Below are positions 1,457 to 38,137 of a DNA stretch of 64,000 nt, piece after piece. The DNA lies in the NCBI RefSeq assembly GCF_002005165.1, contig NZ_CP019699.1:2294001-2358000 (forward strand), given 5' to 3'. Made by a program: the position numbers and the translations under genes. The notes beneath the pieces are model-generated. The model did not search any database, was not told the DNA's origin, and saw only the letters and a list, made by a program, of their open reading frames with translations. Position 1 is the stretch's first letter, and each line of letters opens with the position of its first letter. Source of the DNA: Novibacillus thermophilus. GTDB taxonomy: Bacteria; Bacillota; Bacilli; Thermoactinomycetales; Novibacillaceae.

Positions 1457-2867
1457 ATGCGTTCGAGAGAAGAGCGCAGACAGCAGAATATCCCGCAAGG
1501 GAGCTGCCAACAGAGAGCAGCGGTGAAGCCGCGAGGGTATGTTGGAGCGCCGAGCTCTTCTCCGGCACAAGTCGCCCCTTCCTCTCGCGAAGACCATAAC
1601 GACTTGCTGGACAGGATGCTTGAGAGAGAAAATCTCTTGCTCGCATAACAAGCGAGTGGTCCGAAACGGAGGAGCGCCCGGAGTGGACGGAGTAACGGTA
1701 GCTGAACTGCAGGCTTACCTGAACACACACTGGGCACAGGTGAAAGCAGAGCTCCTAGCGGGAACCTACAAACCCGCGCCAGTCAAACGGGTGGAAATCC
1801 CCAAACCTGGAGGCGGCGTGAGGCTTCTAGGGATCCCGACCGCGATGGACCGGCTCCTCCAGCAAGCCCTGCTGCAAGTGATGCATCCGATCTTCGATGC
1901 TCACTTCTCATGGGACAGCTACGGCTTCCGACCAGGGAAGCGAGCCCATGATGCGGTCCTTCAAGCCCAGCGCTATATCCAGAGTGGATACAGATGGGTT
2001 GTGGACTTGGACTTAGAGAAGTGCTTTGACCGAGTAAACCACGACATGCTCATGGGGAGGGTAGCAAGAAGGGAGAAGAACAAGCGAGACCTGAAACTCA
2101 TCCGGGCGTACCTCAACGCCGGAGTCATGGTCAACGGAGTATGCCAACGGACAGAGGAAGGGACGCCGCAAGGCGGACCGCTGAGTCCGCTTCTGGCCAA
2201 CATCTTGTTGGACGACCTGGACAAAGAACGAAAGAAACGCGGGTTGCAATTCGCACGTTATGCGGACGATTGTAACATCTTTGTCGCTAGCAAGCGCGCA
2301 GGGGAACGCGTCATGGAATCGGTGATTCGCTTTGTAGAGGGAAAGCTGAAACTGAAAGTGAAGCGAGACAAAAGTGCGGTAGACCGCCCCTGGAACCGGA
2401 AATTCCTAGGGTTCAGTTTTCTGCCGGACAAACAAGCAACGATTCGGTTAGCCCCGAAGACCATCTCCCGATTCAAAGATAGAATACGTGAGATGACGAG
2501 TCGTTCACGGGCGATCTCCATGGAAGAGCGAATTAAACGGCTCAACCGCTACATCATCGGTTGGGTCAGGTACTTTCGACTGGCATCGATGAAGACGCAC
2601 TGTGAAAGATTCGACCAATGGATTCGGCGCAGACTGAGGATGTGCCTATGGAAACAATGGAAACGGGTCAGAACCCGTCTTCGTGAACTTAGGGCCCTTG
2701 GCGTACCAGAATGGGCCTGCTTCATGATGGCCAATTCCCGCCGAGGACCATGGGAAATGTCCCGGAACACAAACAATGCCCTTCCGACTTCCTACTGGGA
2801 AGCGAAAGGGCTGAAGAGTATGCTTTTTCGTTATATGGAACTTCGTCAACCTTTTGGAACCGCCTAG
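1457..2867 (+). pseudogene. ltrA: Group II intron reverse transcriptase/maturase, frameshifted
   Basis: The intron-encoded protein (about 469 residues if repaired) has reverse transcriptase blocks 1-7, YADD at 2259-2270, and a maturase X domain (RYIIGWVRYFR onward); it ends LRQPFGTA without a DNA-endonuclease domain. The start is ATG 1457 behind AAAGGAGAG. The frame is broken near 1646: the first part ends LERENLLLA-stop, while the family sequence continues one frame over as NKRVVRNGGAPGVDG. Removing one A from GCATAACAAG gives LLLAYKRVV, the expected sequence. The stop codon lies inside domain V. Unlike other frameshifts in this window this is not a G/C run, so the intron may truly be unable to make full-length protein. 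Confidence 0.8.
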
Positions 2868-2926
2868 TGCGGACCCGCATGCTAGGTGGTGTGAGAGGAC
2901 GGGGGCTAGCCGCCCCCTCCTACTCG
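2859..2926 (+). ncRNA. Group II intron domains V and VI
   Basis: Domain V is a hairpin with arms around CCGCCTAGTGCGG and GCATGCTAGGTGG; it holds the catalytic CGC triad. Domain VI follows as a GC-rich hairpin (GACGGGGG / CCGCCCCC) with an unpaired A at 2922, the likely branch point. The reverse transcriptase stop codon (TAG, 2865-2867) is inside domain V. Confidence 0.7.
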
Positions 2927-2927
2927 A

Positions 2928-3302
2928 TTAATGCTGGTTGTGCGTTTCCAGTTCAGGCAAGGCCGAGAGCTTTTCTTTCACTTCTGACAAAAGTTGTTCC
3001 GCCTTTTTTAACAGGTCCTGCGGCACTTCTGCGTCGAAGTTCATCCCGTGGGGGTAGTAGTGTTTGAATGTCACGGGTGTCTTCAGTACGATCTCGCAAC
3101 CTGGGTGCTCGACCGTGCCAGCCACGACTTTACAGGGGATGCGCAAGTAATAGTCGGGGGCGTGTCCGTTGTCCACCAGTTTGTAGTCGTAAGACACTTT
3201 ATGGTAATCCCAGGCCGGATAAAAGCCTATTTTTTTCATAATCGGGTCGATTTTTTCGAATAAGTGATGGATGCCTTCCACTCCGCTGTCTTCAAAGATC
3301 AC
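2928..3302 (-). CDS. yugN: YugN-like family protein
   Basis: A 124-residue cytoplasmic protein similar to Bacillus subtilis YugN, function unknown. The start is set at GTG 3302, giving MIFEDSGVEGIHHLFEKIDPIMKKIGF, because AAGGAGG lies 8 bases upstream and B. subtilis YugN begins in the same way; a longer frame reaching 3347 lacks a ribosome-binding site. The TAA stop abuts the 3' end of the group II intron, so the intron has moved yugN about 1.9 kb away from the bidirectional hairpin that probably served as its terminator. Its mRNA may now run antisense into the intron. Confidence 0.8.
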   Translation of the reverse strand: MIFEDSGVEGIHHLFEKIDPIMKKIGFYPAWDYHKVSYDYKLVDNGHAPDYYLRIPCKVVAGTVEHPGCEIVLKTPVTFKHYYPHGMNFDAEVPQDLLKKAEQLLSEVKEKLSALPELETHNQH

Positions 3303-3350
3303 GGACCATTCCTCCTTCGTATCATTCGCGCTTCTTCTATTTTCCACTAT

Positions 3351-3379
3351 ATCATATTACGTATTCCTCCTGGACGCAA
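3351..3379 (-). promoter_or_regulatory. Sigma-A-like promoter of yugN
   Basis: On the minus strand TTGCGT (3374-3379) and TATGAT (3351-3356) are separated by 17 bases, about 50 bases before the GTG start of yugN. Confidence 0.45.
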
Positions 3380-3480
3380 TGAATTGTCGATCTTGTGGCA
3401 ACACGCATAAGTTTTGTCAGAGTGGACACGTTAATCGATAGAGTTTAAGCACATTCGCAAAAGGAGGACGTTGACTGTCT

Positions 3481-3918
3481 ATGCGAGAAGAAACTTTGCG
3501 AGACATTATGACGACAAACGTGACGTACAGCAACCCGCAAGATCCCGTGATGCAAGCTGCCCAAAAGATGAAACAGCTGAATGTCGGCTCCATTCCCGTC
3601 TGTGACGCAAACCAAAACGTCATCGGCATGATTACGGACCGGGACATTTGCTTGCGCTGTGTGGCGGACAACTTGCCGAACTCCACACCAGTTCAACAGG
3701 TGATGTCGCAAAACGTCGTAACGGCTTCTCCAGACATGACTGTGGACAAAGCCGCCCACCTCATGTCGGAACGGCAAATTCGCCGTTTGCCCGTCGTGGA
3801 GAACGGAAAAATGGTCGGGATTGTCGCCATCGGCGACCTGGCCACCCGTCACCCGTCCGCTGAAGAAGCCGGTCACGCGCTCAGTGACATTTCCTCCCCC
3901 AGTCAGCCGTTACAGTAA
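3481..3918 (+). CDS. Tandem CBS-domain protein
   Basis: A 145-residue cytoplasmic protein consisting of two CBS motifs (about residues 7-60 and 72-127), similar to stand-alone CBS-pair proteins such as B. subtilis YhcV. Each motif ends in the usual IGMITDRDI or VGIVAIGDLA strand-turn. CBS pairs bind adenine nucleotides and sense energy or ionic state; the partner here is unknown. Start ATG 3481 follows AAAGGAGG with a rather long spacer of 13 bases, and the in-frame TGA just upstream excludes an earlier start. It is a single-gene unit with its own hairpin behind it. Confidence 0.85.
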   Translation: MREETLRDIMTTNVTYSNPQDPVMQAAQKMKQLNVGSIPVCDANQNVIGMITDRDICLRCVADNLPNSTPVQQVMSQNVVTASPDMTVDKAAHLMSERQIRRLPVVENGKMVGIVAIGDLATRHPSAEEAGHALSDISSPSQPLQ

Positions 3919-3941
3919 CACCGCACACTTCACTCCTCTTT

Positions 3942-3967
3942 AACCGCCTGTCTCGTGTCAGGCGGTT
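3942..3967 (+). terminator. Hairpin after the CBS gene
   Basis: AACCGCCTG / CAGGCGGTT, 9-bp stem with an 8-base loop; the following bases are only moderately T-rich (GATTCGTG), so it may be an imperfect terminator. Confidence 0.5.
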
Positions 3968-4064
3968 GATTCGTGTAAAAACGTGTGTATTTTATCGTTT
4001 GACTGTGTTAATCTTGAAAAAAACAGTCGTCATTTTGTAGAGGTTATGCGGGAGACGCGGAATA

Positions 4065-4703
4065 ATGGAATGGAACACAATTTGGGCGGTAGTTGAAGAC
4101 TTTTTTTCTGCGGAACACTTGTTGTATCTGCTGGAGGAATACCGTGATCTCGGGCCTTTGCCGGGGATCCTCTTGCCTATGATCGAAGCCCTGATGCCTT
4201 TCCTGCCTTTGGTCGTCATTATAGCCGGAAACGCAGCTGCGTACGGGTTTTGGTTCGGTTTTCTGTTTTCGTGGATTGGGGCGGTTTTCGGATCGCTCAT
4301 CGTCTTTCTCATTTTCAGGCGACTGGCTCGGCAACGGGTCATGGGGTTTATATCCCGGCACCCGAAAGTGTTGTCGATGCTTGACTGGTTTGAGCGGCAC
4401 GGCTTTGGGATGATTTTTCTCCTCCTGTGCTTTCCGTTTACTCCGTCTTCCTTAATTAACGTCGTCGCCGGTCTGTCGAAAATCAACGTGCTGACGTTTT
4501 CCCTCGCCGTCATTCTCGGGAAGATGGTCATGATTTCAGTGGTGGCGTTTGTCGGACACGACATCGTGTCCCTCGTGAGACAGCCAGAGCAATTGGTCGT
4601 CCTGTTAGTAGCTATGGCTATACTGTGGATGATCGGCAAGTACATCGAAATGCGTTTGACAAAGAGAAGAGTGTCGCCGGACACAAGACAAGAAAACAGC
4701 TGA
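4065..4703 (+). CDS. TVP38/TMEM64 (DedA-superfamily) membrane protein
   Basis: A 212-residue integral membrane protein with about five hydrophobic segments and the SNARE-associated/VTT-domain signature: GILLPMIEALMPFLPL, then GFWFGFLFSWIGAVFGSLIVFLIFRRL, then FPFTPSSLINVVAGLSKI. Proteins of this group act in membrane lipid homeostasis and some are scramblases; the specific substrate cannot be read from sequence. The basic C-terminus (RLTKRRVSPDTRQ) is expected in the cytoplasm. The gene stands alone between two hairpins. Start ATG 4065; the ribosome-binding site (ATGCGGGAGA) is modest. Confidence 0.85.
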   Translation: MEWNTIWAVVEDFFSAEHLLYLLEEYRDLGPLPGILLPMIEALMPFLPLVVIIAGNAAAYGFWFGFLFSWIGAVFGSLIVFLIFRRLARQRVMGFISRHPKVLSMLDWFERHGFGMIFLLLCFPFTPSSLINVVAGLSKINVLTFSLAVILGKMVMISVVAFVGHDIVSLVRQPEQLVVLLVAMAILWMIGKYIEMRLTKRRVSPDTRQENS

Positions 4704-4724
4704 GATACATATGGAGATTTGTCC

Positions 4725-4750
4725 AATCCGCCAGTTAGGCGGATTTTTTA
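4725..4750 (+). terminator. Terminator of the TVP38-type gene
   Basis: AATCCGCC / GGCGGATT stem with a 5-base loop followed by TTTTTT. Confidence 0.85.
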
Positions 4751-4760
4751 CGTTTGAGTC

Positions 4761-4791
4761 TGTATAGACGCCGTGTTGGAGCTTCATACTA
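4761..4791 (+). promoter_or_regulatory. Forespore (sigma-G/F-like) promoter
   Basis: TGTATA (4761-4766) and CATACTA (4785-4791) are separated by 18 bases. The -10 is an exact match to the sigma-G consensus as known in B. subtilis (TGMATA-N17/18-CATACTA) and the -35 differs at one base. It lies 17 bases before the TTG start of the 36-residue gene at 4808. Confidence 0.6.
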
Positions 4792-4807
4792 CTGTTGAGG
4801 TGATGCA

Positions 4808-4918
4808 TTGGCACTGTCGGAACGAATGGAACCGTTGGGAAGGTGGGAACTCATGGGACTGGACCCGGAACACATATACTGTAATGACTGTATGGCGATG
4901 GAGAACTATTTTAAATAG
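4808..4918 (+). CDS. 36-residue putative forespore microprotein with YCNDC motif
   Basis: A small gene starting at TTG 4808 with GAGGTGA 5 bases upstream. The product begins MALSERMEPLGRWELM and ends in a Cys-rich, aromatic tail (HIYCNDCMAMENYFK). It has no membrane segment. I do not recognise the family. Support for it being real: a proper ribosome-binding site, natural amino acid composition, and a sigma-G-like promoter directly upstream. The overlapping frame that would extend the next gene upstream is Trp/Arg-rich and looks non-coding. The two Cys, spaced C-N-D-C, could bind metal or form a redox pair; that is inference. Confidence 0.55.
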   Translation: MALSERMEPLGRWELMGLDPEHIYCNDCMAMENYFK

Positions 4919-4949
4919 GCCGATTGGACAGGAGAAAGGGGTCTTCGCC

Positions 4950-5417
4950 ATGCTGGATCAGTTGTTGAGCGAAGAAAACATCCGCGTACAAGAAGAGTGT
5001 CAAGACTGGCAAGCGGTTGTAGACAGGGGAGCCGGTATTTTACTTGCGCAAGGGTGTATCGAAGCGGGGTACGTTTCCCGCATTAAAGACTACTTAGAGG
5101 AGCACGGGCCGTACATGGTGATCGCGCCGGGCGTCGTCTTACTTCACGCCCGTCCGGAAGACGGAGCGAACGGCGTGTGCATGAGCCTGATGACGTTAGC
5201 TTCTCCCATTGCGTTCGGGCACGCACAAAACGATCCGGTCGACATCGTGATTACGTTTGCTACCCCGGACGACGAGCAGCACGTACAGGCCCTTTCGCAA
5301 ATGACGGAACTGCTTTCCGACGAAACGAGCCTTAGAAAACTGAGAGAGGCGAAGGAGGCTGAGGAAGTGCTCAATGTTGTTCGGCCTTTCGTACAAAAGG
5401 GAGGTGAGAGGCGATGA
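4950..5417 (+). CDS. PTS EIIA component (ascorbate/mannitol-fructose type)
   Basis: A 155-residue cytoplasmic phosphocarrier, EIIA type 2. It takes phosphate from HPr and passes it to the IIB encoded next. The active-site His is His66 in APGVVLLHARPE, followed by the family's SLMTLASPIAFGH and DPVDIVITFATPD blocks. The start is ATG 4950 behind AGGAGAAAGG; a longer open frame to 4773 is Trp-rich, unlike the family, and was rejected. It overlaps the IIB start by 4 bases (ATGA), so translation is probably coupled. With IIB and IIC it forms a complete three-gene permease similar in order to ulaC-ulaB-ulaA. Confidence 0.85.
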   Translation: MLDQLLSEENIRVQEECQDWQAVVDRGAGILLAQGCIEAGYVSRIKDYLEEHGPYMVIAPGVVLLHARPEDGANGVCMSLMTLASPIAFGHAQNDPVDIVITFATPDDEQHVQALSQMTELLSDETSLRKLREAKEAEEVLNVVRPFVQKGGERR

Positions 5418-5689
5418 AAAAAATTCTCGTCGTCTGCAGTAACGGTCTGGGCAGCAGTCTCATGCTCAAATCCGCTATCCAGCGGGCATGTGACGAACAG
5501 GGCATCGAGGCGGAAGTCGAGCACTGTGACTTGGGGTCTGCCCACTCCATGGCACACGGTCGCGATTTAATTGTGACGTCAGAAGCTCTGGCGGACGAGC
5601 TGGAAGGATTGGAGGTCCCCGTTGTCACGATTGTGAACTTTACCAGTCAGGAAGAAATCAAAGAGAAGGTGTTGAGCAAGTTGCAATGA
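5414..5689 (+). CDS. PTS EIIB component (ascorbate type)
   Basis: A 91-residue cytoplasmic IIB subunit with the phosphorylated Cys in the first strand (KKILVVCSNGLGSS, Cys8) followed by the P-loop-like GLGSSLMLK. Family length is about 90-100, so it is complete. It sits between IIA (4-base overlap) and IIC (26-base gap). It would transfer phosphate from IIA to the incoming sugar, probably L-ascorbate or a related acid sugar. Confidence 0.85.
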   Translation: MKKILVVCSNGLGSSLMLKSAIQRACDEQGIEAEVEHCDLGSAHSMAHGRDLIVTSEALADELEGLEVPVVTIVNFTSQEEIKEKVLSKLQ

Positions 5690-5715
5690 CACGCCATGTT
5701 TAGGAGGAGGCCATC

Positions 5716-6984
5716 ATGCAGGGGTTTCTCGGGTTTATCGTCAACGAAGTGCTGAGCCAACCAGCGGTCATTGCCGGTCTGATGGCGCTCATCGGCTTGG
5801 TGGCGCTCAGAAAACCGGCTCGCACCGTTTTGACCGGCACTTTGAAAACGATTATCGGGTTTTTAATTCTCGGGGTCGGTGCCGATGTCATTACGAGTAC
5901 ACTCAATCCGTTGGGGACAGTGCTGCAGGAAGGGTTCGGGATAAACGGAGTGATCCCGAACAACGAAGCCATTGTCGCGCTTGCCGTGGACGATTTCGGG
6001 CGCCAGACGGCGATCATCATGAGTCTCGGCTTCGTGTTTAACTTGGTCTTCGCGCGGTTGACACCTTTAAAGTACGTGTTTTTAACCGGCCATCACACGT
6101 TTTTCATGGCCTGTTTAATCTCTGCCGTCTTGACGACTGCCGGTATGGGCGGAGGCCTACTCATCCTCGTCGGTTCTGTCATTCTCGGCTTTCTCATGGT
6201 GGCGATCCCGGCATTGGGACAGCCGTTTATGCGCCGCATTACCGGTGACGACAATATCGCCATCGGTCACTTCGGGACTGTCGGGTACGTTGCGTCTGCA
6301 TTAGTCGGTAAGTGGTTCGGAAACCCGGAGAAGAGCACGGAAGAAGTGAAAGTGCCGAAAGGGTTCGGTTTTCTGAGAGATACGACTGTGTCCACCGCTT
6401 TGACGATGGTCGTCATTTATGTGTTCGTCGTCTTGTCGGCTGGACCGGATGCGTCAGCAGGTGTGGCCGGCGGACAGAATTACATCGCCTTTGCCGTGTT
6501 GCAAGGGTTGATGTTCGCCGTCGGTCTGTACGTCATCCTGGCCGGTGTGCGGATGATGCTCGCCGAGATCGTTCCCGCTTTTCAGGGGATCGCGGAAAAA
6601 ATTGTGCCGGATGCCAAACCGGCTTTGGACTGTCCGGTGACGTTCAATTTCGCCCCGACAGCGGTGATCATCGGGTTCTTGTCCAGTTTTCTCGGCGGAT
6701 TGATTGGGTTGGGCATTCTCGCCGCAGTGGGCGCGACGGTGATTATTCCAGGTCTCGTTCCGCACTTTTTCACCGGGGCCACCGCCGGAGTGTTCGGGAA
6801 TGCCACCGGCGGGAGGCGCGGCGCATTCCTCGGTGCGCTGGCAAACGGCTTGCTCATCAGCTTTTTGCCTGCGTTGCTGTTACCCGTACTGGGCGACCTC
6901 GGGTTCCAGAACACGACGTTCGGGGATGCCGACTTCGCAGTGGTTGGCATTGTCATCGGCTTTTTCGCCAGTTTGTTTCAGTAA
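5716..6984 (+). CDS. ulaA: PTS ascorbate-type EIIC permease (UlaA/SgaT family)
   Basis: A 422-residue integral membrane transporter with about 10-12 hydrophobic segments. It begins MQGFLGFIVNEVLSQPAVIAGLMALIG and carries family features such as GFLILGVGADVI, LTGHHTFFMACLISAVL and PHFFTGATAGVFGNATGGRRGA. It translocates and, with IIB, phosphorylates its sugar. A ribosome-binding site TAGGAGGAGG precedes ATG 5716. No UlaG-type lactonase or regulator gene is adjacent, so the downstream catabolic steps must be elsewhere and the substrate assignment to ascorbate rests on family alone. A hairpin terminator follows. Confidence 0.85.
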   Translation: MQGFLGFIVNEVLSQPAVIAGLMALIGLVALRKPARTVLTGTLKTIIGFLILGVGADVITSTLNPLGTVLQEGFGINGVIPNNEAIVALAVDDFGRQTAIIMSLGFVFNLVFARLTPLKYVFLTGHHTFFMACLISAVLTTAGMGGGLLILVGSVILGFLMVAIPALGQPFMRRITGDDNIAIGHFGTVGYVASALVGKWFGNPEKSTEEVKVPKGFGFLRDTTVSTALTMVVIYVFVVLSAGPDASAGVAGGQNYIAFAVLQGLMFAVGLYVILAGVRMMLAEIVPAFQGIAEKIVPDAKPALDCPVTFNFAPTAVIIGFLSSFLGGLIGLGILAAVGATVIIPGLVPHFFTGATAGVFGNATGGRRGAFLGALANGLLISFLPALLLPVLGDLGFQNTTFGDADFAVVGIVIGFFASLFQ

Positions 6985-7000
6985 GTGACGTGTGAGATTG

Positions 7001-7025
7001 ACCCGCCGCACTGGCGGGTTTTTTG
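7001..7025 (+). terminator. Terminator of the PTS genes
   Basis: ACCCGCC / GGCGGGT stem with a 5-base loop and TTTTTTG tail. Confidence 0.85.
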
Positions 7026-7063
7026 CGTTTTTCCGCGCAGGCGCTAAGTCCCCGGCAGACAGC

Positions 7064-7093
7064 TGCATAATTTCTTCCGGATAATACACAATA
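7064..7093 (+). promoter_or_regulatory. Sigma-G-like promoter of the germinant receptor operon
   Basis: TGCATA (7064-7069, exact match to TGMATA) and CACAATA (7087-7093, two mismatches to CATACTA) with a 17-base spacer, 31 bases before the gerA-type ATG. GerA-type operons in B. subtilis are sigma-G-dependent. Confidence 0.45.
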
Positions 7094-7124
7094 AAGGCAG
7101 CTTAGAAAATGGTGGGTCGTTTCT

Positions 7125-8723
7125 ATGAGGAAGGCGTTCATACGTCCCAAAAAAGTAAAGGAAATGCGGAAACAAGAACAACTGCATAAACAGTCGGAAC
7201 GGAAATTGAAAGAGCGGACGGAGAACGTCAAAGTTTATCCAAACCTGCAAGACAATGTCACCTTTGTGGGCACAACACTGGGTGACAGCGGCGATCTCAT
7301 CACCCGCAAGTTTAAAATCCCGTACAACCCAACGCGCGAAGCGGCGATCATGTACTTCGACGGTATGGCGGACTCTGCCATCGTTGACGAATTCATCCTC
7401 CACTCCCTCACGGTGGAACCGGAAAAGGTTGACGAAAAGTACAAAATCGTTCAATGGCTGGAAGACCGCTTGTTGCACATCGGGGAGACGAAACGCAGTC
7501 GCAATATGGAGGACATGTTGGCTGCCCTTTTGTACGGTGACACGATCCTCTATGTCGACGGCTGCGAGGAAGGATTTATATTGGGGACGAAAGGCTGGAA
7601 ACACCGCGGCGTCGAAGAGCCGAACATTGAAGCGGTCGTGCGGGGTTCGCGGGAAGGTTTGACCGAAAACATACGCGTGAACTCGGCCCTCATTCGCCGG
7701 CGCCTGAAAGATCCCGATTTGCGCCTCATCAGCTATACGCTGGGAAAGCGTACGAAAACGAGTGTGGCCGTCCTGTACATCGAAGGCATTATGGATGAAA
7801 AAACGCTGGATGAAATCAAAAAGCGCATTGAAGGCATCAGTATCGACGGGGTGTTGGAAAGCGGGTATATCGAAGAATTTATTGAAGACAACACGTGGTC
7901 TCCTTTCCCGCAAGTTCAGGGAACTGAACGGCCAGACGCGTGTGTGGCGCACCTGTTAGAAGGGAAAGCCGTCATTCTCGTGGACGGCACCCCTTTTTCA
8001 CTCATTGTGCCGGCTGTCTTCTCCCAGTTTTACTGCAGCCCTGAAGACTACTATTCCCGTTTTCTCATTTCCTCCCTCGTTCGGGGCATACGCTTCATTT
8101 CATTTTTTATCGCGTTACTGTTGCCGGCGTTCTACATTGCGTTTGTTTCATTTCACACTGAGATGATCCCGTCTAAACTGTCCATCGCCATTGCCGCGGG
8201 GCGTTCGACGGTGCCGTTTCCGTCGGTGATCGAAGCGCTCCTCATGGAGATCAGTGTGGAGATTTTGCGGGAAGCGAGCATCCGCCTCCCGGGTCCGATC
8301 GGTCCGACCATTGGGATTGTCGGTGCCCTTGTCATCGGAGAATCGGCTGTAGCCGCAGGCATTGTCAGTCCCCTGATGGTCATAGTCGTCGCCCTGACGA
8401 CGATCGGGTCGTATGCCAATCCAAGTTATACGGCGGCGATTGCGATTCGCATTTTGCGCTTTCCGCTCATGATCGCCGCAGCTACAGTAGGACTGTACGG
8501 CGTGATGCTCGGATTGATCCTGATAGTGTTGCACCTGGTGAAATTGAAGTCATTTGGCGTGCCGTACTTGTCGCCCATAACCCCGTTTAAATTGCGCGAT
8601 GCGAAAGATTCTTTGCTTCGCATGCCGTGGAAGTGGATGAACGAGCGCCCGCAAACGTTCAGCCCGGGAGATAACAAGCGGGAAGGCCAAATCAAGCCCC
8701 AGAAGTCGGGGGGACCGTCATGA
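7125..8723 (+). CDS. Spore germinant receptor subunit A (GerA family)
   Basis: A 532-residue subunit of a germinant receptor in the spore inner membrane. A long hydrophilic N-terminal region (residues 1-300) with the family blocks DLITRKFKIPYN, YFDGMAD and INSALIRRRLKD-like NSALIRRRLKDPDL is followed by membrane segments between about 310 and 490, including LRLPGP-type RLPGPIGPTIGIVGALVIGESAV. It overlaps the B subunit by ATGA. Family length is 480-540, so it appears complete. Which nutrient is sensed cannot be read from sequence. Confidence 0.9.
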   Translation: MRKAFIRPKKVKEMRKQEQLHKQSERKLKERTENVKVYPNLQDNVTFVGTTLGDSGDLITRKFKIPYNPTREAAIMYFDGMADSAIVDEFILHSLTVEPEKVDEKYKIVQWLEDRLLHIGETKRSRNMEDMLAALLYGDTILYVDGCEEGFILGTKGWKHRGVEEPNIEAVVRGSREGLTENIRVNSALIRRRLKDPDLRLISYTLGKRTKTSVAVLYIEGIMDEKTLDEIKKRIEGISIDGVLESGYIEEFIEDNTWSPFPQVQGTERPDACVAHLLEGKAVILVDGTPFSLIVPAVFSQFYCSPEDYYSRFLISSLVRGIRFISFFIALLLPAFYIAFVSFHTEMIPSKLSIAIAAGRSTVPFPSVIEALLMEISVEILREASIRLPGPIGPTIGIVGALVIGESAVAAGIVSPLMVIVVALTTIGSYANPSYTAAIAIRILRFPLMIAAATVGLYGVMLGLILIVLHLVKLKSFGVPYLSPITPFKLRDAKDSLLRMPWKWMNERPQTFSPGDNKREGQIKPQKSGGPS

Positions 8724-9910
8724 GCAAAGCGAATGCGTCCACATCCGATCGGCAGCAGCAAACGACCCAGACGGCAGCCAGTGAACAAGTTTTTACTTTT
8801 TGGCAAGCGGCGGCCATTGTACCGAGCACGCTACTCGGCGCCGGGGTGTTGACACTCCCCCGGGAACTCGCTCTGGCGACAGACAGCAACAGTTTTTTGC
8901 CCATGCTGGTGAGCGGGGCGTTTTTCCTGTTTGTGGTGTGGATGATCACCAAACTCGGACAGCGGTTTTCAGGGTTGACGATCGTCGGTTATACGCAAAA
9001 ATTGCTCACGTTTGCCGGCAACCAGCGGATCGGCCGCGTGTTGGCATTTCCGGTCCTGGCCGTTGTCGGCATCTGGTGGCTGTTGTCCGTCGCCGCCGCT
9101 CTCAGGATTTTCGGAGAGGCCCAGCGGTCCGTCGTGTTCCCGGACACCCCCTTGTGGTTCATAGTGGGAACGATGCTGTTTGTCAGCGCCCTCGTGGCGG
9201 CCAACCGGGCGGAAGTGATCGCCCGGCTCAATGAATTTTTACTTCCGATTATCGTCATTCCCCTCGTCCTGATCGTCATCTTAGCCCTCGACAATGCGGA
9301 GTGGACCAATTTGTTACCGCTTGTGAATATGAGTTGGGGTGAATTTTGGCGCGGAGTCCTGCAAAGTTTCTTTGCCTATCAGGGCGTTTCGGTTATCGCC
9401 GTCTTTATGGCGTCCTACCAGCAGCCGGAAAAAGCGGTACGGTCCCATTTTACCGGGATCGGGATTATGATCGTCGTTTACATCATGGTCACGATGACGA
9501 CCATGGCCGCTTTTCCGCACAAGGAATTGGAACGGCTCATGTGGCCGACGTTGGAACTCGTCAAGTTGACCCAAATTCCCGGACTGATTTTCGAACGGCT
9601 GGAGTCGGGATTTTTGGCCATCTGGGTTGTAGCCGTCTTTACAACGTTAGCCAATCTGTTAACGGCAGCAGTCCACTTATTCAGTGAGTACTCCGGTATC
9701 AAACAGGAACAGCGCGTCTGGATCATGTTGCCCCTTGCCTTGCTGGTCTTTGTCGTGGCCTTGTGGCCACAAGACGTCTATCAGACGTTTGAGTTTGCAA
9801 AGAAAGTGCAAATGGCTGGATTTGTGATGGCGATCGCGATTCCCCCGCCGCTGTTAATACTCGCTTGGTTGAGGAGGATGGGCCGTGACCGTGAGAAGGA
9901 GAGTCGTTAA
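8720..9910 (+). CDS. Spore germinant receptor subunit B (GerB family, APC-type transporter fold)
   Basis: A 396-residue membrane protein with about ten transmembrane segments, a member of the amino acid/polyamine/cation transporter superfamily used as germinant-binding subunit in GerA-type receptors. It starts with a polar, Ser/Gln-rich leader of about 25 residues, then FTFWQAAAIVPSTLLGAGVLTLPRE, the typical first helix. The start overlaps the stop of subunit A, and its own last 26 bases overlap the start of subunit C, so the three subunits are translationally linked. Confidence 0.9.
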   Translation: MSKANASTSDRQQQTTQTAASEQVFTFWQAAAIVPSTLLGAGVLTLPRELALATDSNSFLPMLVSGAFFLFVVWMITKLGQRFSGLTIVGYTQKLLTFAGNQRIGRVLAFPVLAVVGIWWLLSVAAALRIFGEAQRSVVFPDTPLWFIVGTMLFVSALVAANRAEVIARLNEFLLPIIVIPLVLIVILALDNAEWTNLLPLVNMSWGEFWRGVLQSFFAYQGVSVIAVFMASYQQPEKAVRSHFTGIGIMIVVYIMVTMTTMAAFPHKELERLMWPTLELVKLTQIPGLIFERLESGFLAIWVVAVFTTLANLLTAAVHLFSEYSGIKQEQRVWIMLPLALLVFVVALWPQDVYQTFEFAKKVQMAGFVMAIAIPPPLLILAWLRRMGRDREKESR

Positions 9911-11012
9911 AGGGCTGCTGGTCGTGTGCTGCATCTTGATTTTGAGCGGATGCTGGGACCGCCGGGAGATAGAGGAGCGCACGTCTGTCGTGGCCCTTGC
10001 AGTGGACAAACACGAGCAAGGGATTCAAGTGACCATTCAAGTGCCGATTCCCATCAAAATCGTCGGTTCAGGTGGCGGCGGCGGTGGCGATGGCGGACAG
10101 GGGGCCGTGCAGCTGTTCACATCCAGCGGGCAAGATTTAACCGACGCGTTTAAAAATGTGCAAAAGCAGCTCAACAATGAGCTGGATCTCGGGCAAATGC
10201 AATTGGTCGTGATCAGTGAGGCGTTGGCCCGAGACGGCCTGGAAGACATCACCGACGCTCTGCAACGGATGCACCAAGTGCGCCGCCGTCTTTGGCCGGT
10301 CGTCGTGGAAGGGAAGGCGGAAAAGGCATTGGTCGTAGGACCCCAGTTAGAGCAGATTCCTGCCTTTTACTTAATCGATATGCTCCAAAACGATGTGAAA
10401 CAGAAGCGCTTGTTTGACTTCAACCTGGGAGCTTTCCTCTCCAATCTGATGGACGAAGCGGAGAATCCAATACTCAACCTGTATCGCGTGACCGATCAGA
10501 CGATTGACTGGAACGGATTAGCGTTGTTCCGGGGTGATCGCATGGTAGGGCAATTGGGTGAAGCCGAGAGCTGGACACTCGTCCAAATTCGAGACGGAAG
10601 GCCAGGTTTCCGAGAGAGCTTTCCTTGCCCTGACGGGGAAAAGGAGGAGTTGACGTTTGAACCGAGGCATGCCAAGCGGACGGTCGCATTTAGTGAACAA
10701 CCGTTTAAATTACGCGTTCACATTCACATGGAAGGCGTCATCGTCGAAGAGACGTGTGGCACCGATTTGTCGAAGGAGAAAAACAGAGAAGCGGTGGAAC
10801 GCGAATTAAAACAAGTGTTCGAACGGCGGGCGGACCGTACGATCCGCAACATCCAACAATCTAACACGGACGTGACAAAACTCGGCACGCACATCCGGGC
10901 GTATCACCCGGCTGTCTGGCATCACATCGACTGGCAGGAAAAGTTCCCGACGACGGACGTTGACGTGACGTACACTGTCCGTATCACCGGGACCGGTGCG
11001 AAATTTCGATGA
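9885..11012 (+). CDS. Spore germinant receptor lipoprotein subunit C (Ger(x)C family)
   Basis: A 375-residue lipoprotein anchored on the outer face of the spore inner membrane. The signal peptide ends in the lipobox LSGC with the lipidated Cys at residue 23, followed by WDRREIEERTSVVALAVDK, the invariant start of mature GerC proteins. A Gly-rich insert (SGGGGGGDGGQG) is at about residues 63-74. The C-terminal third carries the conserved PAVWHHIDWQEKFP-type motif. Start GTG 9885 lies inside the end of subunit B. It completes an A-B-C receptor operon. Confidence 0.9.
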   Translation: MTVRRRVVKGLLVVCCILILSGCWDRREIEERTSVVALAVDKHEQGIQVTIQVPIPIKIVGSGGGGGGDGGQGAVQLFTSSGQDLTDAFKNVQKQLNNELDLGQMQLVVISEALARDGLEDITDALQRMHQVRRRLWPVVVEGKAEKALVVGPQLEQIPAFYLIDMLQNDVKQKRLFDFNLGAFLSNLMDEAENPILNLYRVTDQTIDWNGLALFRGDRMVGQLGEAESWTLVQIRDGRPGFRESFPCPDGEKEELTFEPRHAKRTVAFSEQPFKLRVHIHMEGVIVEETCGTDLSKEKNREAVERELKQVFERRADRTIRNIQQSNTDVTKLGTHIRAYHPAVWHHIDWQEKFPTTDVDVTYTVRITGTGAKFR

Positions 11013-11174
11013 CAAGTAATTTAACCGAATCGAATTGAGGGAAATGACACGTTGACTCATGTGAAAGGGTTTCGCGAACAAAATTTAGGTGTTTAGTCTC
11101 CTTTTTTTTCCTTTAGTCAATGTGTTATAATTTGTCGAAAGAGTGACAGGCCCAATGGGGAAGGAGTGGAGGAG

Positions 11175-11417
11175 ATGGTTGAGCCGTCAGAAGCTGAATT
11201 GTTGCAAGAGTACAGCGATTACTTGATAGATGAAAAAATTACGCTGAGGAAAGTGTCCTACTCGGACGGCGTACGCTACCAAGTGAAGTGGACGCGAAAA
11301 GTCGATCAAGCTTATCAAGTGGATTTTACGGAGTTTCAAACGGTAGACGATGCACGCAAGACGTTTTTGGATTACATACGAACATATGTTTTGAAGGACA
11401 ATCGACTTGAAACGTAA
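11175..11417 (+). CDS. Hypothetical 80-residue acidic protein
   Basis: A small soluble protein, rich in Glu, Asp, Lys and Tyr, with no signal or membrane segment (MVEPSEAELLQEYSDYLIDE... to ...YVLKDNRLET). I do not recognise the family. The start is ATG 11175 with AAGGAG 8 bases upstream; a GTG three codons earlier is too close to that site. A TATAAT element at 11126-11131 suggests its own sigma-A promoter although the -35 region is only a T-run. It converges on the DUF421 gene with 8 bases between stop codons, leaving no room for a separate terminator. Confidence 0.65.
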   Translation: MVEPSEAELLQEYSDYLIDEKITLRKVSYSDGVRYQVKWTRKVDQAYQVDFTEFQTVDDARKTFLDYIRTYVLKDNRLET

Positions 11418-11425
11418 CAAACCCA

Positions 11426-12240
11426 TCATTTGAACGGTCGCAAATAGTCGTCGGCAAATTCCGGCTCCTGTAAGGACCGGTCTTTTTTTAAACTTTGTTT
11501 GATTTGATTGCGTAAATTGTTCGCTTGCGGTTGGTGGGCACCTTGAGTTGGGTCGTTGTTCCAGTCGATGTGGATGTTGCCGTTTGCATCTAGCAGCGCG
11601 AGACTGACATTTGCGAGCAAATCTCTCGTAACGCCGCTTGCCGTCAGTTTCATCCACAACCACTCACGGTCAATTTTCAAGAGACGCAGGACGTTATCCT
11701 GGATCTCCCCGTCTTGGACGAGGATCGCCGGAATTCCCGCATACGGAGGGGTCAAATTCAGGTCGGATGGCCGCACTGCCCGATGACCAGGTTTTGGGAT
11801 CACGCTGATCTGCCCCATTTCTTCGAGGAAAGCGAACTCGATGTCTTTCGGGTTGACATACCCTTTCACCCTCAACTCGCTGAGTAATTGGGGATCGTCA
11901 TACGCGCTTTTTTCAAATTTTTTTCATTCATGTTGCCGTGGCGGATCAGTTCTAACGTGTCACCGACCACATACTTGCGGGTGGCGTTGTTATAGGAGAG
12001 AAAGTCCAGCATTAAGTGTGCCCCGACGAGAACTGTGGCAAGGAACAGACTGGGGAGCAGGCCTTCGTTGGAAATCGGTTCAGTCAAGGCGTTTCCCAAA
12101 AGGACGACAATGGCCAAATCGAACGTCGACAGTTCGGAAACAGCGCGCCGGCCCATGATGCGCAAAGACAACCAAAACGTCACAAAAATGACTAATGGCG
12201 TAATCATGTGTTCGTACAGTTCTGTGATCATCTTCAACAT
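11426..12240 (-). pseudogene. DUF421 membrane protein, split by a one-base frameshift
   Basis: A DUF421 (YetF/YrbG-like) protein. The first 122 codons from ATG 12240 encode three membrane helices, LRIMGRRAVSELSTFDLAIVVLLGN and the start of the cytoplasmic domain (DTLELIRHGNMNEKNLKKARMTI). The frame then shifts, and 11426-11875 carries the rest (ELRVKGYVNPKDIEFAFLEE...). Adding one C to the CCCC run (plus-strand G 11890-11893) gives RMTIPQLLSELRVKGY, the expected family sequence. It is therefore probably an intact gene of about 271 residues with a consensus error. Members of this family may influence germination or membrane function in spores; role here unknown. Confidence 0.75.
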
Positions 12241-37918: not shown

Positions 37919-38137
37919 ATGGCTCAACAACAACAAGGTCGTGAGCGTAACACCAACCAACTGTTGGTCCCGACGGCTGAACAAGCGTTGGACCAAATGA
38001 AATACGAAATCGCTCAAGAATTTGGCGTTCAATTGGGAGCTGATACGACCTCCCGCGCCAACGGTTCTGTAGGTGGAGAAATTACAAAACGCTTGGTTGC
38101 TTTAGCAGAGCAACAACTGGGCGGCGGAATCCAATAA
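37919..38137 (+). CDS. Alpha/beta-type small acid-soluble spore protein
   Basis: A 72-residue DNA-coating SASP made in the forespore. Both family signatures are present: the germination-protease site region [32 protein letters not shown]. It protects spore DNA from heat and UV and is degraded at germination. ATG 37919 with AAAGGAGGTGAG. Upstream GCATGA (37859-37864) and CGATATTA (37884-37891), 19 bases apart, may be a weak sigma-G promoter. Confidence 0.95.

Follow-up and report, generated by a model that had tools for sequence, protein, structure and literature searches.

A 36-codon reading frame before a phosphotransferase operon of Novibacillus thermophilus is related to a four-cysteine protein family and follows a putative forespore-type promoter

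What does a 36-codon open reading frame (ORF) preceded by a forespore-type promoter encode in Novibacillus thermophilus, and why does it lie directly in front of the genes of a phosphotransferase system (PTS)? We analyzed the 64,000-nucleotide stretch of contig NZ_CP019699.1 that contains it, referred to here as the window. The initial annotation of the site had pointed to TGTATA and CATACTA separated by 18 nt, a ribosome-binding site, and an ORF with a YCNDC motif, all of which were present on re-reading:

4761 to 4766, + strand: TGTATA, -35 element of a forespore-type promoter (sequence reading, pattern scan, and comparison with relatives)
4785 to 4791, + strand: CATACTA, -10 element of the same promoter after an 18-nt spacer (pattern scan and comparison with relatives)
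4797 to 4804, + strand: Shine-Dalgarno (SD) sequence GAGGTGAT, common to all six genes compared (that of the window and those of five relatives)
4808 to 4918, + strand: 36-codon ORF with a TTG start at 4808 and a TAG stop at 4916 to 4918, matching a 68-residue four-Cys protein over its C-terminal half and keeping the second Cys pair (YCNDC)

Translation of 4808 to 4918 gives (M)ALSERMEPLGRWELMGLDPEHIYCNDCMAMENYFK. A translated search across spore formers had been proposed as a check on the initial annotation. Among 61 genomes including its own, the 36-residue sequence had some match at an E value of up to 1 in 21, and strong relatives were found in 5 of the 60 other genomes, with 69 to 77% identity over residues 2 to 36 (E = 1.2e-15 to 2.2e-12); the next-best match (E = 0.009) has a stop inside. 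Relatives this similar in five other genomes show that the ORF is not a chance frame. The relatives are encoded by Melghirimyces profundicolus (L026), a member of the Thermoactinomycetaceae, M. thermohalophilus (L029), Marinithermofilum abyssi (L027), Paludifilum halophilum (L028), and genome G019 (L003).

All five relatives are longer, with 68 residues, or 71 if read from an upstream GTG, and they carry CDTC as a first Cys pair and YCxDC as a second. Their residues 34 to 68 are the part to which the window ORF aligns, and it includes the C-terminal block of the family, YCxDCMAMxxYFK. The N-terminal half with CDTC is missing from the ORF, and a profile search of the genome at E values of up to 10 did not find it elsewhere; this search returned model positions 34 to 68 and one weak match (E = 0.157) with three stops inside. 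Lacking that half, the copy in the window counts as a truncated relative rather than a full member of the family. The 68-residue start of the relatives (ATG in four, GTG in L003) lies 4 nt behind GGTGAT, and the TTG of the window lies 3 nt behind it; since the start thus sits 3 to 4 nt behind GGTGAT in all of the genes, the missing stretch can be placed between the SD sequence and codon 34. By sequence comparison, then, the window ORF is the C-terminal half of a larger four-Cys protein.

The full-length profile matched 6 of 42 genomes of the order, including that of the window. One other genome of the same taxonomic family gave no profile match, and its best match to the 36-residue sequence had an E value of 0.49; the truncation was seen in one genome of the lineage. 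In a class-level sample, 7 of 398 genomes matched, comprising the six already known and a weak partial match in G349 (E = 0.003, within a 503-residue frame), and in a phylum-level sample 3 of 398 matched, comprising the window genome and two weak partial matches with an internal stop. A Ciceribacter locus (L030) showed 46% identity over about 33 residues, and the full-length protein had no match in phage or plasmid collections.

The retained codons appear to have been under constraint. Over 35 codons, the window differs from its relatives by 26 to 34 nucleotides and by only 8 to 11 residues, where random placement of the differences would give 17 to 21 residue changes; none of 2,000 simulations was as low in any of the five comparisons. 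The C-terminal half has 22 columns that are identical in the window and in all four relatives with species names, and the frame contains neither a stop nor a frameshift. This constraint spans the entire period since separation and may predate the truncation.

Family and structure searches gave limited guidance on the function of the protein. Pfam and NCBIfam had no row for the 36-residue sequence and nothing above the cut-off for the five full-length relatives, for which Pfam rows were weak zinc-ribbon matches only and the best NCBIfam row had an E value of 0.003 and 17.5 bits versus a cut-off of 37. Sequences of solved structures gave seven weak matches, to zinc-finger chains over the TGE..C..C stretch (best E = 0.015). 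A model of the full-length protein, built from an alignment of four rows (pLDDT 81, pTM 0.64), has three strands, a helix, and a final helix, with the first CxxC (residues 15 to 18) between strands and the second (57 to 60) opening the last helix. The model was considered against a treble-clef or zinc-ribbon fold, in which two CxxC knuckles flank a hairpin and a helix; Foldseek found no match to it at an E value of 0.001 or better, and the top-ranked row from VIA-align 2 (Z = 4.0, rmsd 5.4, 49 aligned residues) was not significant. The model of the 36-residue form was poor (pLDDT 61, pTM 0.25). Judging from the two CxxC pairs only, the full-length protein probably holds one four-Cys zinc site. 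The suggestion in the initial annotation of a Cys pair for metal or redox chemistry is therefore borne out in part: the pair is there, but as the first CxxC is gone, a four-Cys metal site is impossible within one chain of the window product.

A known small protein that resembles the four-Cys family in size is Gin/CsfB (PF10764), which carries Cys pairs. The five full-length relatives, however, gave no PF10764 row at E values of up to 10 (in a search whose filters drop most rows above 0.1), and the genome of the window, like 40 of 42 genomes in all including it, has a separate Gin match elsewhere, at C1:28622. The PF10764 model matched 0 of 14 control genomes, Bacillus subtilis among them, and it may therefore miss CsfB itself. 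From these searches, the four-Cys protein is probably not Gin/CsfB. One study places csfB under sigma-F control in the forespore (PMC4383634). The four-Cys family is named by none of the family libraries searched, and a literature search, which covered sigma-G promoters, PTS in the forespore, sporulation genes, and PRD regulators, could not target a nameless protein. No Rfam family reached its gathering score within 3900 to 7200.

The initial annotation had also called the promoter sigma-G-like. GHATR-N18-CATWMTA is used as a sigma-G consensus; none of the literature searched on sigma-G promoters spelled such a consensus out letter by letter. The pattern matched once in the 64-kb window versus 0.07 expected, and at least one match occurred in 6 of 100 shuffles. 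Genome-wide it matched seven times (two of these being one place read on both strands) versus five times for a reversed control pattern, and because this strict consensus is not enriched, the motif by itself is weak evidence. None of the seven matches lies at any of the six matches of this genome to small acid-soluble spore proteins (SASPs). By eye, CATACTA or CATTATA stands upstream of three of those six (L049, L048, and, further off, L051), and the word before L049 is CATACTA, as in the window.

Comparison with the relatives is more informative. We scored the 100 nt before each start against TGHATR-N17-19-CATWMTA, which has 13 consensus positions, a spacer range chosen after a stricter first look had given a site in one of the five relatives (L003, spacer 19). 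The best score was 13 for the window and 12, 13, 11, 11, and 12 for L002 to L006, with shuffle P values of 0.001 for the window and 0.002, 0.002, 0.006, 0.042, and 0.005 for the relatives. Fisher's combined P value for the five relatives was 1.1e-7 with kinship ignored; they are themselves related, with L002 and L006 clearly near to each other here, and part of their agreement is inherited. Between the -10 box and the SD sequence lie 5 nt in the window and 4 to 6 nt in the relatives, which would place the start of transcription at or within GAGGTGAT. As the full-length genes have a comparable promoter-SD block in front, a sigma-G- or sigma-F-type (forespore) promoter before the ORF is well supported by sequence comparison: -35 and -10 elements with 17- to 19-nt spacing precede the gene. 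The first C of the -10 box is replaced in four relatives (G in L002, L004, and L006; T in L005), which leaves sigma-F as a further candidate. The sequence does not separate the two factors, and a study of Clostridioides difficile describes promiscuity between SigF and SigG in promoter recognition (PMC7438776). A forespore-type promoter thus probably accompanies the gene in the window and in the relatives, with sigma-G as one of two candidate factors.

The surroundings of the ORF, on which the initial annotation was silent, bear on what this promoter might now control:

4725 to 4745, + strand: terminator-like hairpin (8 pairs, 5 GC) followed by TTTT, behind the upstream VTT/DedA-like gene (PF09335)
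4950 to 5417, + strand: stand-alone EIIA (PTS_EIIA_2), a homolog of the domain at the C terminus of MtlR-like PRD regulators
5414 to 5689, + strand: EIIB (PTS_IIB), overlapping the EIIA stop
5716 to 6984, + strand: EIIC (EIIC-GAT in Pfam; PTS ascorbate transporter subunit IIC in NCBIfam)
7000 to 7020, + strand: terminator-like hairpin followed by TTTT, behind EIIC (hairpin scan)
7125 to 11012, + strand: GerA-type germinant-receptor operon (PF03323 GerA, PF03845 Spore_permease, PF25198/PF05504 GerAC), directly behind the PTS operon

The ORF adjoins the PTS operon with a gap of 31 nt from its end to the EIIA start, and no other promoter-like site was seen in between. A simple scan found six sigma-70-like sites in 2800 to 12000 and none between 4703 and 4950. 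Because the forespore promoter is the only one seen before the operon, PTS synthesis would be expected in the developing spore. The scanned region has 11 terminator-like sites versus a shuffle mean of 11.5, and the hairpin at 4725 to 4745 was therefore judged by its position and strength. A lenient search for a hairpin with a T-rich tail found one behind four of the five full-length genes, L006 being the exception, and for the window ORF a single weak hairpin (-7.4 kcal/mol), some 86 nt downstream and inside EIIA. The EIIA reading frame is open from 4773 to 5417 (+ strand) and spans the entire short ORF, which we judged to be chance. An EIIA extended in frame from ATG 4803 across the ORF region was rejected by eye; the SD sequence touches this ATG, and the stretch is unlike the linkers of the relatives.

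The full-length genes share with the window the C-terminal 35 residues, the promoter block, and the SD sequence; they differ from it in having 68 residues, two Cys pairs, and other neighboring genes. Their neighbors, identified at four of the five loci (L027 was left out of the family search), also differ from one another: rRNA/tRNA methyltransferase-like and SNF2 genes at L026, M23 peptidase and GH81 genes at L028, CCG/Fe-S protein and DeoR genes at L029, and a glycine dehydrogenase-like gene at L038.

The PTS operon seems to have had a different beginning. Its EIIA has matches in 27 of 42 genomes at an E value of 1e-15 or better, its own included, and we inspected the sequence preceding EIIA at 11 loci, again with its own among them (L059 was void because of a contig end). 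The four nearest loci are 57 to 62% identical in EIIA, 67 to 71% in EIIB, and 75 to 78% in EIIC. In all four, EIIA is the C terminus of a 711- to 737-residue protein that joins HTH, PRD, and EIIA parts in one chain, with EIIB and EIIC behind, whereas the window gene encodes EIIA only. A more distant EIIA (L058, 44%) sits within a 182-residue frame, so a stand-alone EIIA occurs elsewhere too. The N-terminal part of the regulator of L077 has matches of at most 31 to 33% identity in the genome of the window versus 43 to 53% in the other three of the four relatives, and the ortholog therefore appears to have been lost. Remnants of the regulator linker in 4918 to 4950 were not significant, as 372 to 885 of 2,000 shuffles scored as well in four comparisons. 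An alignment of the N-terminal part with the upstream VTT gene (27% over 85 columns) was taken as chance, its E value of 8e-4 applying to a 1.1-kb target only. Elsewhere in the genome (G000:C1:1607884-1609787), a 470-residue PRD-regulator-like frame is followed by a separate EIIA-like frame.

A 19-bp element, TGCCRCATTGAAASCGGAA, stands before the regulator-EIIA gene in the four nearest relatives (L075 to L078), from which the pattern was itself derived. Allowing up to two mismatches, it has 25 matches in 16 of 42 genomes versus 2 for a reversed control; five matches are exact, four of them preceding these regulators. The element also lies upstream of MtlR-like regulator-EIIA genes at L085, L088, L091, and L092, and we regard it as a candidate operator. 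It was absent from the genome of the window at up to two mismatches and from the window at up to three. In the four relatives, the homolog of the window EIIA forms the C-terminal domain of an MtlR-type PRD regulator, a type that includes B. subtilis MtlR, and unlike these the window EIIA stands alone, without the HTH and PRD parts and the 19-bp element. The fused regulators have the architecture of MtlR, and a B. subtilis study describes operator regions in front of mtlA as well as mtlR (PMC3217849). At L086 (G006:C38:21630), an exact TGCCRCATTGAAASCGGAA is followed by what is by eye an apparent C-terminal part of EIIC, which looks as if the regulator, EIIA, EIIB, and most of EIIC had been deleted.

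On balance, and with some reserve, we favor the view that the ORF is a truncated relic whose forespore promoter and SD sequence have been captured by the PTS operon, the ORF itself serving as a leader cistron. In the relatives, the intact gene encodes the 68-residue two-CxxC protein behind a putative sigma-G- or sigma-F-type promoter with almost no leader. A deletion in the window lineage may have removed the N-terminal half and spared the promoter, the SD sequence, and the last 35 codons, where a TTG suitably spaced from the SD sequence would start translation of the remnant. The PTS EIIA-EIIB-EIIC operon would once have begun with a regulator-EIIA gene, of which the PRD-regulator part was lost together with the 19-bp element, and the remnant would have come to stand before EIIA, EIIB, and EIIC after that loss. 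Transcription would read through into the PTS genes, and the short ORF would now be translated as their leader or first cistron and would not work as a metal protein.

The same observations can be read in other ways. The 36-residue product might still be a working forespore protein in which two chains pair their CxxC motifs into a four-Cys site or the C-terminal helix binds a partner. The 22 invariant columns, the freedom from stops and frameshifts, residue changes far below random expectation, and the intact promoter and SD sequence would fit this, but the predicted hairpin has gone with the first CxxC, the model of the short form is poor beside that of the full-length protein, and the selection could predate the truncation; we consider it unlikely. 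The opposite reading, a truncated gene in plain decay before a PTS read from another, unrecognized promoter, the arrangement being meaningless, seems to us improbable as well. Half of the protein is indeed missing, a single genome of the lineage shows the arrangement, and the promoter calls come from sequence, but promoter, SD sequence, and 35 codons show no decay, a terminator-like hairpin isolates the upstream gene, and the stretch from 4703 to 4950 has no sigma-70-like site. As for the native, self-standing forespore microprotein with a Cys pair for metal or redox chemistry that the initial annotation had envisaged, the peptide is indeed conserved, matches no Pfam or NCBIfam model at cut-off, and has the promoter and SD sequence, but the five other genomes with strong matches all encode the longer form and no other short form appeared among the genome samples searched, which makes a native 36-residue protein very improbable.

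If the relic and its promoter were captured by the operon, a further proposal, which we regard as possible if somewhat doubtful, is that the PTS was rewired into the forespore through deletion of its PRD regulator and operator and joining to a sigma-G-type promoter that had belonged to the small forespore gene, beside a GerA-type operon, so that the spore would have sugar-phosphorylating uptake ready for germination or outgrowth. In B. subtilis, the glcU-gdh genes for sugar uptake and a dehydrogenase are read by sigma-G. As proposed for the window PTS, they place sugar uptake in the forespore, and by this analogy a forespore-controlled uptake gene would not be new in kind; unlike the window genes, glcU-gdh is not a PTS and is not known to have a relic gene in front. 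The locus points to a small four-Cys family, nameless in the libraries searched, that occurs in Thermoactinomycetaceae and a neighboring family and has a forespore-type promoter, and it is a concrete candidate for an operon whose developmental control changed through promoter capture. Should the PTS indeed be produced in the forespore, next to a germinant receptor, one could test whether spores in this group are equipped with a sugar-phosphorylating transporter of their own.

Elsewhere in the window, a group II intron reverse transcriptase/maturase of 442 residues lies at 1539 to 2867 (+ strand; PF00078 and PF08388), and an alpha/beta-type SASP match lies at 37955 to 38119 (+ strand; PF00269, 83 bits).
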